Of a stretch of DNA of 64,000 bases, positions 58,512-63,866 are shown in pieces. The notes under the pieces are model-generated. The model did not search any database and was not told the origin of the DNA. It saw nothing but the letters and a program-made list of their open reading frames with translations. Position 1 is the stretch's first letter. Each line of letters starts with the position of its first letter. The DNA lies in contig NZ_LIPV01000002.1 of NCBI RefSeq assembly GCF_001418255.1, positions 124,001-188,000 of the forward strand. Direction: 5' to 3'. The translations under genes and the position numbers were made by a program. This DNA is from Thiomonas bhubaneswarensis (GTDB lineage: Bacteria; Pseudomonadota; Gammaproteobacteria; Burkholderiales; Burkholderiaceae_C).

Positions 58512-58664
58512 GATGGCCAATAGTGTATCCCGTTGCAACACACGGCGATGCCCCGTCGCGCCGCAAGGGCTTCGCGAAGCGAGACCTGCCCCCGCCTATT
58601 GATCCGTCATGGAGAAGGATGAACCGGTCATGGGCCCCGCCCTGCAAGGGCCTTCCCCTCCCAG

Positions 58665-58684
58665 CTCCCCCATGCGGTGGGGAG
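58665..58684. repeat. G/C-rich hairpin, third member of repeat family
   Basis: CTCCCC and GGGGAG flank CATGCGGT, within the 241-bp gap between the small copper-module gene and the MmeI-like gene. Outer flanks (CCCCTCCCAG, CTGGGGAG) continue the symmetry imperfectly. It resembles the two hairpins at 53265-53321. Nothing else is seen in the gap. Confidence 0.5.
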
Positions 58685-58752
58685 GTCTGGGGAGCGTTTG
58701 AGAGGCGCACCCTCGAGCGCCCGCGCTCTGTCCCAAACTCTTCCTCGAAGAG

Positions 58753-61700
58753 TCATCCCCGCCAGCCCGCCCCTTCGCGGCGGGCGCGGCCCAGGGCTTC
58801 GAGGGTGTCGAGGATGCGGGGCAAGCTCTTTTTCCACGGGCCGCGGCCTTTGAAGCGGGTGGCGATGTCGCTCTCGCCCAGCGGTTGGGGGCTGGCTGCG
58901 AGCAGGTCGGCCATGGCGCGCATCTGCTCGGGCAGGGTGGCGGGCCAGGGCTGGGCGGCAGGCTCGGCGCTGGATGCTACGAAGCTAGACCTGACCCCAT
59001 CCAACCCTTCCAGCCGGACTTGTGACGGCTGGGTGGTGGCGGTCTGCGGGTTCTGCAACGCCGGGCGCAGCCAGCGCACGGTGCCTGCGGCTTCTTCGGC
59101 GGCGCGGGCGTGGTTGAGGGCGAGCAGGCGGGTGAGCAGTTCGGTGCGGGTGGCGGCATCGGTGTCGCCCGCGGCGAGGTCGGCCCAGCCGTAGGCGGCG
59201 AGGACTGCGGCGTCGAGTTCGGCGTGCAGTTCGGCCAGCACGGCGACCAGGCCGAGCTGGTGCACGGCGCGCTCCTTGGCGGTGAGGGGGCGGCCTGCGC
59301 GCAGGGCGTCGAGCACGTTGTAGAGCGCGGTGAGGGTGAGGGCGTCGGGGTGGGCGGCGAGCACGCGCTTGCGGTGGGCGTCGATGGCTTCGGCCCGTTC
59401 GGCGATGCGCTGGCGCAGCGCGGGGGTGAGGCCGGTGTCGGCGTCGGGGAAGGGGAAGGTTTCGAAGCAGCGGGTTTTGACATAGACCGGATCGTTGCCG
59501 ACGCCGAGTCGGCTGCCCGTCGCCAGCGCCCATTCGACGTGCAGGCGGCTGGAGAGCGCGCCGAGGTAAAAGGCGTCGTCGAGGGCGATGGCGATGAGTT
59601 TGTTGTCGGGCAGGATGGCGACGTCAAGGAACTGGAAGGTGCGGTGCTTGGCGGTTTCGACGGTGGCAATGAAGCGCGGCAGACCGGCGAGTTGTTTGCG
59701 CAGTTTGGGATTGGTTTCACCGAAAAGCCACCATTTTTCGCGCCGACCAGCGCGGTTGTTCTGCTCGCGCTCGGGCTTCACTCGTTCGAGCAGCCATTGA
59801 TAGACGGCTGGGTAGCGGCTGCGCACCTGCTCGGCGTCGAGGCCGAAGAGGTCGATGACGAGCACGCCGCGCGGGGTGTCGGTGAGGTCGCGGCCGTTGC
59901 GGTAGGGGCGGATGCGCTGCTCCAGTCCCGGCTCGCGGCCCAGCCCGAGCGCGGCGGCCTGCTCGGGGGTGACGATGAAGCCAGACCCGAACAGTTGCAC
60001 GCCGCGGTTGCTCAAGCCGAGGTCAGCCTCCAGAGGGCGCGCCGACAGCAGGTTCGGTCCCACGGTCAGATCGGCATGAATCAGCCCGGTGTGCTCGCGC
60101 AGTTGCACCTGCATTTCGCCGTGCTCGCCGGGCACTTCGGCGGTGACGGTTTGCAGCCGCCCTGCGCCCGCGCCGGGGGCGGCCACGGTCATGGCGATGC
60201 GCACGGCGGCGCCGCTGGCGCTGTCCACCCAGGGGTGATCGGGAATGGCGTCAACGAGGTGTAAACCGTCTTGCAAGGCGCTTTGCACCACGCGGCGGTT
60301 GAAGGTCTGGCGCAGGCTGTTGGTGGTGATGAAGCCGAAGCGCCGGGCCTCGCCTGCGGCAACCTTGCGCGCGGCGGCGTGCCACCAGAACATGACGAAG
60401 TCGGCGCTGTCGGGCACCTCGGGCCAGACGGCGCGCAGCGCGTCCACATAGCCGTCGCCCAGGGCGCCGCGCATGGCGGCGGCGCCGATGAAGGGCGGGT
60501 TGCCGACGATGAACTCGGCCTGCGGCCAGTCGGCGCGGCGGGGCTGGTCGTAGGCCCATTGCGGCACTTGCGCGGCGGGGTCGGGCACGGGCTCGCCGGT
60601 AGCGGGGTGGGGGATGAAGCTGCGACCGTCCCAGCGGGTGCGCAACTGGCCGCGTTCGTCGAGCAGGGGGCGCTGGCTGGCCCAGGCGAGCACGGCGTCG
60701 CGGCAGACGATGTTGCCCCAGTCGTGCACCACGGGCTCGGCCACGGCGCGGTTGCCGCGGGTGCGGATGTGCCATTGCAGGTAGCCGATCCACAGCACGA
60801 GTTCGGCCAGGGCGGCGGCGCGGGCGTTGACTTCGATGCCGAGCAGTTGGCGCGGGGTGACGGTTTCGCCTTCGAGCGCGAGGCTGTCCTGCGTTTGCCC
60901 GAGGGCGGCGAGCTGGTTGAGCACTTCGCCTTCGAGGCGCTTCAAGTGCTCCAGGGTGACGTAGAGGAAGTTGCCGCTGCCGCAGGCGGGGTCGAGCACG
61001 CGCAGGGTGCACAGGCGGTGGTGAAAGCGGCGCAGTTCGGCGCGGGCGGCTTCCATTTTGGCTTCGCGCGCGCGGCCTTCGAGCTCGGCGGCTTCGTGCG
61101 CGAGCAGCAGCGCGGCGGCCTGGGCGTCGGCCCATTCGGCGCGCAGCGGCTCCATCACGGTGGGCAGCACCAGACGCTCGACGTAGGCGCGCGGGGTGTA
61201 GTGCGCGCCGAGGGCGTGGCGCTCGGCGGGGTCGAGGGCGCGCTCGAGCAGGGTGCCGAAGATGGCGGGCTCGACTTCGCGCCAGTTGGCGCGCGCGGCG
61301 GCCAGCAGCAAGTCCACCTGCTCGCGGGTGAGGGGCAGGGAGTAGGCGTCGTCGCTGGCGCCCTTGAACAGCTTGCCGTTGAAGCGCAGCACGGTCTGCG
61401 CCAGGGCGACGGAAAAGCCGCCGCGGTCCATGTCGGCCCACAGCGCGGCGAGCATGCGCTGGAGTGTGGCGGGGTCGTCGCAGTACTGGCGCAGCAGGCG
61501 GGCGAAGCTGCCTTCGCCGTCGGCACGGGGCAGCAGTTCCACGTCTTCGGCAAACATGGAGAACAGGCAGCGGGTGAGGTAGGCGGCAACGTGCTGCGGG
61601 GCGTGGCCGCTGGCTTCGAGGCTGCGGGCCAGCTCGGCCAGCCGGGCCGCAACCTCGCGGGTGACGCGGGCGCTGGCGCGGGCGGGGTCGAGCGAGAGCG

Positions 61701-62265
61701 GGTCGAGCCAGATGCGGCGCAGGGTGGCGCGCACCTCGGCGCGGGCGAGGTCGGCCAGAGCAATGCGGTGGCTGCGCGGATCGGGGAACGGGGTGTAGGT
61801 GGCGCCGCTGCGGGTGAACTCGGCATAGACCTCGATGAGCTGGCCGACATCGACCACAAGCAGGAAGGGCGGGCGCCCGGCGGCGGCAAGCTCGGCAGGT
61901 TCGAGCGCGCGGGCGTAGCCCTCGGCCTGGGCGCGGGCGCGCAGCAGGGCGTCGTCGAAGCGGCGGGTGTCGCTGGCGGCGCGCAGTTTCTTGGCTTCGA
62001 GCACGAAGCAGCCGCGCCGGTAGCAGTCGATGCGGCCGGGGCTGCTGCTGCCGTCGCCGTGACGAAAGGTGACGGGGCGCTCGAACATGTAGTCCTGCTC
62101 GGGCGTGGGGTGCGGCAAGGGCACGTCGAGCAGTTCGCACAGCTCGCGCACGAAGCTCTGCGCGGTGGAAAGCTCGGAGGCGGCGACGCCGCTCCAGCGG
62201 GCGATAAAGGCGGCGGCGCGGGCGTCGTCGGGATGGGCAGCGGCGGCGGTGGGCGGGGCGATCAT
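58753..62265 (-). CDS. MmeI-like single-chain restriction-methylation enzyme
   Basis: A 1170-residue protein. The N-terminal nuclease motif is Asp80-x9-Glu90-x-Lys92 ([16 protein letters not shown]), of PD-(D/E)xK type. The central N6-adenine methyltransferase has [12 protein letters not shown] at about 422-436 and IVGNPPFIG at about 584-594. Residues about 700-950 would hold the target-recognition region. This is the type IIL arrangement of MmeI (about 920 residues), longer here at the C-terminus. It would methylate and cut at the same specificity. It is a lone gene with no separate specificity or protector protein. A 24-nt repeat copy lies in its 3' part. Confidence 0.85.
58975..58998. repeat. 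Copy of rpoH-upstream repeat arm inside MmeI-like gene
   Basis: The 24 bases TGCTACGAAGCTAGACCTGA + CCCC are identical to 24 bases of the right arm of the palindrome at 62822-62883. In the reading frame they encode GVRSSFVAS near residues 1090-1098. No partner arm is nearby, so it is a half-element. Confidence 0.85.
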
Positions 62266-62380
62266 GGTGTGATGGTAGAGGCGGCGAGGGCGGCGTAGTC
62301 CGGGGCAAGGAACAACTTGTCACAGCAAGCCGAGGCGTGGGTGAACACAATATGGACATTGACCTCGCGCCCTTTCGTTC

Positions 62381-62836
62381 ATGCCAATCCACTCCTTGAA
62401 ACGCTTTGCCCCTCTTTTTCTGGCCCTGGCGCTGATTTCGGGCGTCGCGCAGGCGGCCACGCTCGAGCAGGCGTCGGCGCTGCTGGATGCCGGTCATTTG
62501 ACGCAGGCCGATCATGCGCTGGCGCAGGTGCTGGCAGACCAGCCGCATTCGGCTTCGGCCCACTATCTGGAAGCGCGGCTGCTGGCGGTCGAGGGCAAAT
62601 GGCCGCTTGCCGAGAAGGAACTGGAACTGGCGAAGCGGCTCGATCCCACCTTGAGCTTCGCACCCGCGGCGCAGTCGCAGGCGCTGGCCAACGAGGTGCT
62701 CAAACACCAGTGGAAGAACCCGGCCGGCTTTGCTGGCTACGGGCAGGCCGCGCTTGCGGCGCTGTTCGTGCTGATTTCGGGCTACCTGGTTGTCGGGGTG
62801 GTGCGCAACAAGCGTCGGCCTGGGGGTCAGGTCTAG
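62381..62836 (+). CDS. TPR-like secreted/membrane protein
   Basis: A 151-residue protein with a signal peptide (residues 1-25), TPR-like helices (ASALLDAGHLTQADHALAQV, ARLLAVEGKWPLAEKELELA) and a C-terminal membrane helix (about 124-143, ALAALFVLISGYLVVGVV). The final codons (GGQV) run into the left arm of the palindromic repeat at 62822, so the repeat appears to provide the current C-terminus. Function is unknown. Confidence 0.75.
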   Translation: MPIHSLKRFAPLFLALALISGVAQAATLEQASALLDAGHLTQADHALAQVLADQPHSASAHYLEARLLAVEGKWPLAEKELELAKRLDPTLSFAPAAQSQALANEVLKHQWKNPAGFAGYGQAALAALFVLISGYLVVGVVRNKRRPGGQV

Positions 62837-62883
62837 CTTCGTAGCATGGAGGGCATGGTGCTACGAAGCTAGACCTGACCCCC
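62822..62883. repeat. 25-bp perfect inverted repeat before rpoH
   Basis: Left arm at 62822-62846 and right arm at 62859-62883 are perfectly complementary (core GTCAGGTCTAGCTTCGTAGC), with a 12-nt loop TGGAGGGCATGG. The left arm covers the last 15 bases of the TPR gene. The right arm ends 19 bp before the CIRCE element. There is no U tract. It may be a mobile REP-like element or act as a terminator for the TPR gene. Confidence 0.9.
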
Positions 62884-62902
62884 ACCCGGGAACTTTCCGC
62901 CC

Positions 62903-62929
62903 TTAGCACTCTCTACTCGTGAGTGCTAA
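62903..62929. promoter_or_regulatory. CIRCE element (HrcA operator) upstream of rpoH
   Basis: TTAGCACTC-9 nt-GAGTGCTAA matches the CIRCE consensus perfectly in both arms and spacer length. It lies 28 bp before the rpoH ATG. CIRCE is bound by the HrcA repressor, so sigma-32 synthesis is probably under HrcA control here. No hrcA gene is in the window. Confidence 0.95.
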
Positions 62930-62957: not shown

Positions 62958-63866
62958 ATGACCCACACCCCGTCAGCCGCACTTGCCCTGCGCCCGGCCC
63001 AGGTCGATGGCGCGTTTCCGCTCGCCCTGCCCAGCCTGGGCAATCTGGATGCCTACATCAGTGCCGTTAATCGCATGCCCATGCTCAGCGCGGAGGAAGA
63101 GGCGCGTCTGGCGCGCACCTGGCGCGAGCAGGGTGACAAGGACGCGGCGGGCAAGCTGGTGCTGTCGCACCTGCGGCTGGTGGTGTCCACGGCGCGGCAA
63201 TATCTGGGCTACGGCCTGCCGCATGCCGACCTGATTCAAGAGGGCAATATCGGTCTGATGAAGGCGGTCAAGCGCTTTGACCCCGAGCACGGCGTGCGGC
63301 TGGTGAGCTATGCGCTGCACTGGATCAAGGCCGAGATTCACGAATACATCCTGCGCAACTGGCGGCTGGTGAAGGTGGCCACGACCAAGGCGCAGCGCAA
63401 GCTGTTTTTCAACCTGCGCTCGATGAAGACGGCCAATGCCGGCATGAACGAGGCGCAGATTGACGAGATGGCGCAGGCGCTGTCGGTCAAGCGCGAAGAC
63501 GTGATCGAGATGGAAAGCCGCATGGGCGGCGCCGACATCGCGCTCGATCCCACTGTGGAAGATGGCGAGGAGAACTACGCGCCCATCGCCTACCTGGCCG
63601 ACACGACTCAAGAGCCGGTGGCCGTGCTCGAAGCGCGCAGCCACGACCGGCTGCAGGTCGAAGGGCTGGAGAGCGCGCTCGAACTGCTCGACCCGCGCAG
63701 CCGCGCCATCGTGGAGCAGCGCTGGCTTCAGGTGGCCGACGACGGCAGCGGCGGCAAGACCCTGCACGAACTGGCCGCCGAGTACGGCGTGTCGGCCGAG
63801 CGCATCCGCCAGATCGAGGTGGCAGCGATGAAGAAGATGCGCAAGGCGCTGGCCGAGTTTGCGTGA
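62958..63866 (+). CDS. rpoH: RNA polymerase sigma-32 factor
   Basis: A 302-residue heat-shock sigma factor. Region 2 is seen as LSHLRLVVSTARQYLGYGLP and QEGNIGLMKAVKRFDPEHGV, followed by the RpoH box (QRKLFFNLRSMK). Region 4 ends with LHELAAEYGVSAERIRQIEV. It directs RNA polymerase to heat-shock promoters. AGGAGGA lies upstream of the ATG at 62958; the CIRCE element precedes it. An intrinsic terminator follows the stop. Confidence 0.97.
   Translation: MTHTPSAALALRPAQVDGAFPLALPSLGNLDAYISAVNRMPMLSAEEEARLARTWREQGDKDAAGKLVLSHLRLVVSTARQYLGYGLPHADLIQEGNIGLMKAVKRFDPEHGVRLVSYALHWIKAEIHEYILRNWRLVKVATTKAQRKLFFNLRSMKTANAGMNEAQIDEMAQALSVKREDVIEMESRMGGADIALDPTVEDGEENYAPIAYLADTTQEPVAVLEARSHDRLQVEGLESALELLDPRSRAIVEQRWLQVADDGSGGKTLHELAAEYGVSAERIRQIEVAAMKKMRKALAEFA

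Follow-up and report, generated by a model that had tools for sequence, protein, structure and literature searches.

Repeat copies in an MmeI-like gene and upstream of rpoH

The window analysed here is a stretch of 64,000 nucleotides from Thiomonas bhubaneswarensis. Toward its end lie a large MmeI-like restriction-modification gene, a gene for a TPR protein and rpoH, and copies of one short repeat are found within and between these genes (Table 1).

Table 1. Repeat copies and the genes around them, in window coordinates
Feature	Position	Strand	Remarks
MmeI-like type II restriction-modification gene	58753..62265	-	1170 aa; MmeI_N/MmeI_hel/MmeI_Mtase/MmeI_TRD; hosts the single copy
Single repeat copy	58975..58998	+	minus-strand in-frame reading GVRSSFVA in the MmeI-like gene
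TPR protein gene	62381..62836	+	last codons and stop (GQV*) supplied by the left arm
Terminal inverted repeat, left copy	62821..62846	-	GGGGTCAGGTCTAGCTTCGTAGCA and flanking match; also 3' end of the TPR gene
Spacer within the dimer (copies paired head to head)	62847..62858	.	12 nt
Terminal inverted repeat, right copy	62859..62884	+	TGCTACGAAGCTAGACCTGACCCC
rpoH (sigma-32), downstream of the dimer	62958..63866	+	TIGR02392, 401 bits

The 24-mer TGCTACGAAGCTAGACCTGACCCC was found exactly (24/24) at 62859-62882 and again inside the MmeI-like coding sequence, where it is read in frame, as an earlier sequence-only reading of this DNA had claimed. Just upstream of rpoH it is one arm of a palindrome. 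That reading had placed perfect 25-bp arms at 62822-62883; the palindrome is present, and its 100% complementary arms are slightly longer, 26 bp each. The left arm forms the final codons of the TPR gene, also as described before. When folded as single-stranded DNA, the dimer gave a hairpin of -33.4 kcal/mol (z -12.4), and no shuffled sequence folded equally well. The dimer thus shows the two inverted units, short spacer and single hairpin that define a REPIN. Other dimers had spacers of 2 to 16 nt. A single 24-mer folded weakly (-1.4 to -1.6 kcal/mol), which we count against the explanation favoured below. No copies of the dimer were found on plasmids, and no known RNA family was found in the region.

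At 62903-62929, after the palindrome and before rpoH, lies a CIRCE-like operator that is perfect (TTAGCACTC-N9-GAGTGCTAA), and a version of it is also located upstream of rpoH in several relatives. A literature search that combined CIRCE with rpoH, HrcA and betaproteobacteria had no hits.

Dispersal of the repeat and its copies within genes

Identity over 24 nt had been judged very unlikely to arise by chance, and this was borne out by counting the repeat in this genome and its relatives. The genome of the window (G000; 3.2 Mb, 100% complete) contained 11 copies with up to 3 mismatches, against 0 for the reversed control, and a search with the 13-mer core added one further copy. Exact and near-exact copies were spread over several contigs, with identical ones on C3 and C4. 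The repeat was present in 12 of 13 Thiomonas genomes, one of which had 24 copies. It is therefore a dispersed repeat and not a sequence confined to this locus. A degenerate version matched many other Beta- and Gammaproteobacteria.

These counts bear on the origin of the MmeI-like gene's copy. Instead of transposition, recent recombination or gene conversion with the rpoH-side dimer 3.9 kb away had been suggested, and the two window copies are indeed identical over 24 nt. The identity, however, ends within about a base of the 24-mer, and the identical copies on C3 and C4 mean that a donor at 3.9 kb is not required. Because copies are scattered over several contigs, recombination is not needed, and we regard it as very unlikely. 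For the dimer itself, the comparison was made at the rpoH loci of 12 relatives, where matches to the window end at either side of the palindrome; in those relatives' sequences that were read directly, no palindrome was found at this locus. The dimer is therefore, as far as these alignments tell, lineage-specific and not a conserved regulator of rpoH. Selection could still have maintained it as a hairpin with a regulatory role, a transcription boundary or mRNA stabiliser that insulates rpoH from the TPR gene: the fold is very stable, it sits exactly between the two genes and 18 bp before the CIRCE-like operator, and REPs that follow a gene can function at the RNA level (PMC3733652). We consider such selection improbable, given that the dimer is unmatched in the 12 relatives and has no T-run for an intrinsic terminator. 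An effect of the dimer on transcripts in this strain is possible. No nucleotide-exact empty site was recovered at the rpoH locus or at two further loci of this genome (L012 and L013); flanks were found, and the intergenic or linker sequences were too diverged.

In the MmeI-like protein, GVRSSFVA, followed by S, lies near residue 1090 of 1170. The 24-mer amounts to eight codons and is free of stops in three of six frames. The closest homologue (in G001; 90% identical over the N-terminal part and 81% over the C-terminal part) carries an unrelated linker at this position, so the GVRSSFVAS residues are not shared with it. A second in-frame case was found in an RlmL-type methyltransferase gene (THUMP and UPF0020 domains). 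In G000, G003, G010 and G011, the N-terminal linker of this gene contains a dimer of 50 nt; the dimer is decayed in G002 and absent in G001 and G008. Since intragenic REPs in linkers have already been published (PMC3733652 and PMC6006769), in-frame linker insertion is not new as a phenomenon. Rickettsia palindromic elements and intragenic REPs (PMC3733652) are likewise palindromic repeats that are translated in frame within proteins and tolerated. The Thiomonas repeat differs from these in sequence, and it is linked to a transposase whose gene lies between copies of that repeat. For annotation, the family explains short lineage-specific peptides in MmeI-like and RlmL-type enzymes.

Several other arrangements around repeat copies were observed. 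A different MmeI-like gene in G008 (L132:3541-3890) has a cluster of three copies in its C-terminal part, beyond a premature in-frame stop, and apparently encodes an enzyme in decay. An HNH endonuclease gene (PF01844) of G000 lies between two inverted copies with the CCCC ends inward (L013:4513-5569). DNA matching the flanks of this gene lies between two copies in a like arrangement in G010 (L104:1422-2277), and segments matching the HNH-locus DNA were found elsewhere in the genus, which hints at a separate mobile HNH element. At L012:4464-4529 (G000:C4:28463-28528), just past a repeat and its duplication, 66 bp repeat, with 98% identity, an internal piece of an amidohydrolase gene located about 2.2 kb downstream, as if captured as filler DNA. 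A GC-rich stretch at 58560-58700 of the window (CTATTGATCCG...GGTCATGGGC...GCAAGGGCCTT...) is similar to DNA that follows the TPR gene in G002, and probably represents a further intergenic repeat dispersed in the genus.

A transposase bracketed by the repeat in relatives

In G008, an 849-bp gene was found between inverted copies of the repeat with the GGGG ends outward. It encodes a REP-associated tyrosine transposase (RAYT) of 282 aa, matching NF047646 (REP_Tyr_transpos equivalog) with 84.5 bits at a cut-off of 80, Pfam Y1_Tnp with 44.7 bits and, at the C-terminus, HTH_28. The motifs NHYH (HUH) and YVVLNP (Y-x-x-LNP) are readable in the protein. An intact RAYT gene occurs once each in G003, G005, G008, G010 and G012 (homologues of 79-100% identity), each time beside inverted repeat copies, and in G002 only N-terminal and C-terminal remnants are left beside the repeat copy. 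The repeat overlaps the stop codon of the RAYT gene (GCATGCTATGAAG). In four genomes and in G002, it also supplies the start codon and first residues (MKLDLTP or MKPDLTP) of the gene that follows.

No RAYT gene was found when G000 was searched, and the gene next to RAYT was not detected there in a search run without a positive control. The transposase that the sequence-only reading had proposed looking for thus exists in five relatives, bracketed by inverted copies, and is absent from the genome that carries the window. We conclude that this genome lost its RAYT gene and kept the repeats as singles and head-to-head dimers. Because the transposase is missing, present mobility of the repeat here is unlikely.

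RAYT-like genes flanked by terminal inverted repeats (TIRs) that share GGGGWSAS have been called TIRtrons, and some TIRs form dispersed families with dimers and clusters (Di Nocera et al. 2013, PMC3733652). Most such enzymes, with HTH tails, were placed in subclass 2.1, where no REP-like structures were found (Quentin et al. 2018, PMC6006769). The Thiomonas repeat is like these systems: its GGGGTCAG fits GGGGWSAS, inverted copies flank a Y1 transposase in relatives although not in G000, the enzyme has HUH, Y-x-x-LNP and a C-terminal HTH, and copies are dispersed as singles, dimers or clusters. In a GTAG REP, each unit is a short hairpin with GT[AG]G at its foot, whereas in the Thiomonas dimer GTAG is on the loop side. 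As the repeat fits GGGGWSAS and has a RAYT, and does not fit the definition of a GTAG REP, it represents a new family within the known TIR/TIRtron type, with assignment to subclass 2.1 based on motifs and domains. The proposal of a mobile REP-like element was therefore right in kind, the repeat being dispersed and bracketing a RAYT in relatives; more precisely, the unit is a GGGGWSAS TIR of the TIRYT/TIRtron type and no GTAG-footed REP, and its own genome has no transposase. Taken as a whole, the window copies are very probably non-autonomous members of a dispersed TIR family of a TIRYT-type RAYT (HUH/Y1), like TnpA-Y1 subclass 2.1.

The Thiomonas family differs from the TIRtrons in its in-frame intragenic copies and in the polarised flank duplications described below; neither the family nor such duplications are mentioned in the available text of PMC3733652 and PMC6006769. 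For subclass 2.1, Quentin et al. (PMC6006769) found no REP-like sequences, unlike here, where a repeat is present. With the GTAG REPs and REPINs of RAYT groups 2 and 3 (E. coli, Pseudomonas and Stenotrophomonas) the family shares a short repeat associated with a transposase, head-to-head pairs, many non-autonomous copies and a C^T boundary. In contrast to them, it has no GTAG foot at the hairpin base, its single unit does not fold, and it occurs in about 10 copies per genome, not hundreds. A literature search with GGGGTCAG and transposase gave nothing relevant.

Two other candidates were rejected. Regularly spaced palindromes in relatives had looked like an integron-like cassette array, which was discarded because the bracketed gene is the RAYT and each palindrome is a pair of RAYT repeats. 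The second candidate was a hairpin (TAGCA...TGCTA) as a general feature of the DNA preceding single copies; it was present at about 17 of 181, mostly with one fixed spacing and apparently at RAYT 5' ends, and so is not general. A cassette-like array was observed beside the transposase gene of G008 (L088:5900-9000), in which several small genes, to the eye apparently toxin-antitoxin modules, are each followed shortly past the stop codon by a repeat copy in the same orientation.

Tandem duplications at the CCCC end

Thiomonas and other taxa together provided 256 distinct copies, of which 46 have a direct duplication of the CCCC tip and its flank. The mirrored end gave 3/256, as did each of the shifted controls (3/256 and 3/256); identical flanks were merged in this set, but some copies are orthologous and not all are independent, so these counts are not convertible to a probability. 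An independent strict count gave the same polarity, with 19/92 against 0/92 in Thiomonas and 31/164 against 1/164 in other taxa. Examples, on the CCCC side only, are L012:4398-4440, L088:7278 and 8124, L094:6502, L196:1556 and L193:6268. The duplicated unit is TGACCCC plus mostly 6-11 nt of flank (37 of 46). The duplicated tip was 7 nt long in 27 of 46 cases, which places the left edge at AGACC^TGACCCC, that is, at C^T. At TGACCCC sites away from the repeat, a duplication was seen at 2 of 104, both in one array. By eye, no flank duplications were found at eight loci of GGGG-TIR RAYTs from other genera. At the orthologous 3' end of the RAYT gene, the duplication is present in G008 and in none of G012, G003, G010 and G002; comparison of these junctions therefore suggests that it most likely arose after insertion.

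We propose tentatively, as something possible and short of probable, that the one-sided duplications are scars of RAYT nicking at resident repeats, and hence a genomic record of RAYT activity and of the cut position on the chromosome. The main rival is ordinary replication slippage at the C-rich tip without involvement of the transposase, a serious possibility that falls not far short of an even chance. Short tandem duplications are a usual product of slippage, some loci have irregular repeats and filler bases, and in L166 a TGACCCC array lies away from any recognised copy. Against slippage stand the scarcity of duplications at TGACCCC outside the repeat, the right edge at 6-11 nt into the flank in most cases, and the left edge, which falls mostly exactly at C^T, the dinucleotide cut by the TnpA-REP enzymes of E. 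coli and Stenotrophomonas (PMC8266576).

As for the spread of the repeat, we infer that the transposase acted on single-stranded DNA, for instance the lagging-strand template, where a dimer would fold into a long hairpin. Cutting would have taken place at C^T, with the repeat then being joined to other sites. Copies would persist between genes and in disordered protein linkers, since a unit of eight codons without stops in half of the frames can survive there. Repeated C^T nicking of resident copies, followed by slipped repair, could have generated the short tandem duplications on the CCCC side only.

How RAYTs spread REPs and TIRs has been described as unresolved (PMC8266576). In the Thiomonas family, a transposase can be assigned, many copies can be compared, the loss of the transposase is clear and in-frame insertion into protein linkers recurs. 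The interest of the element itself is modest, and that of the polarised scar is higher: the scar is testable in vitro and may bear on how RAYTs act.
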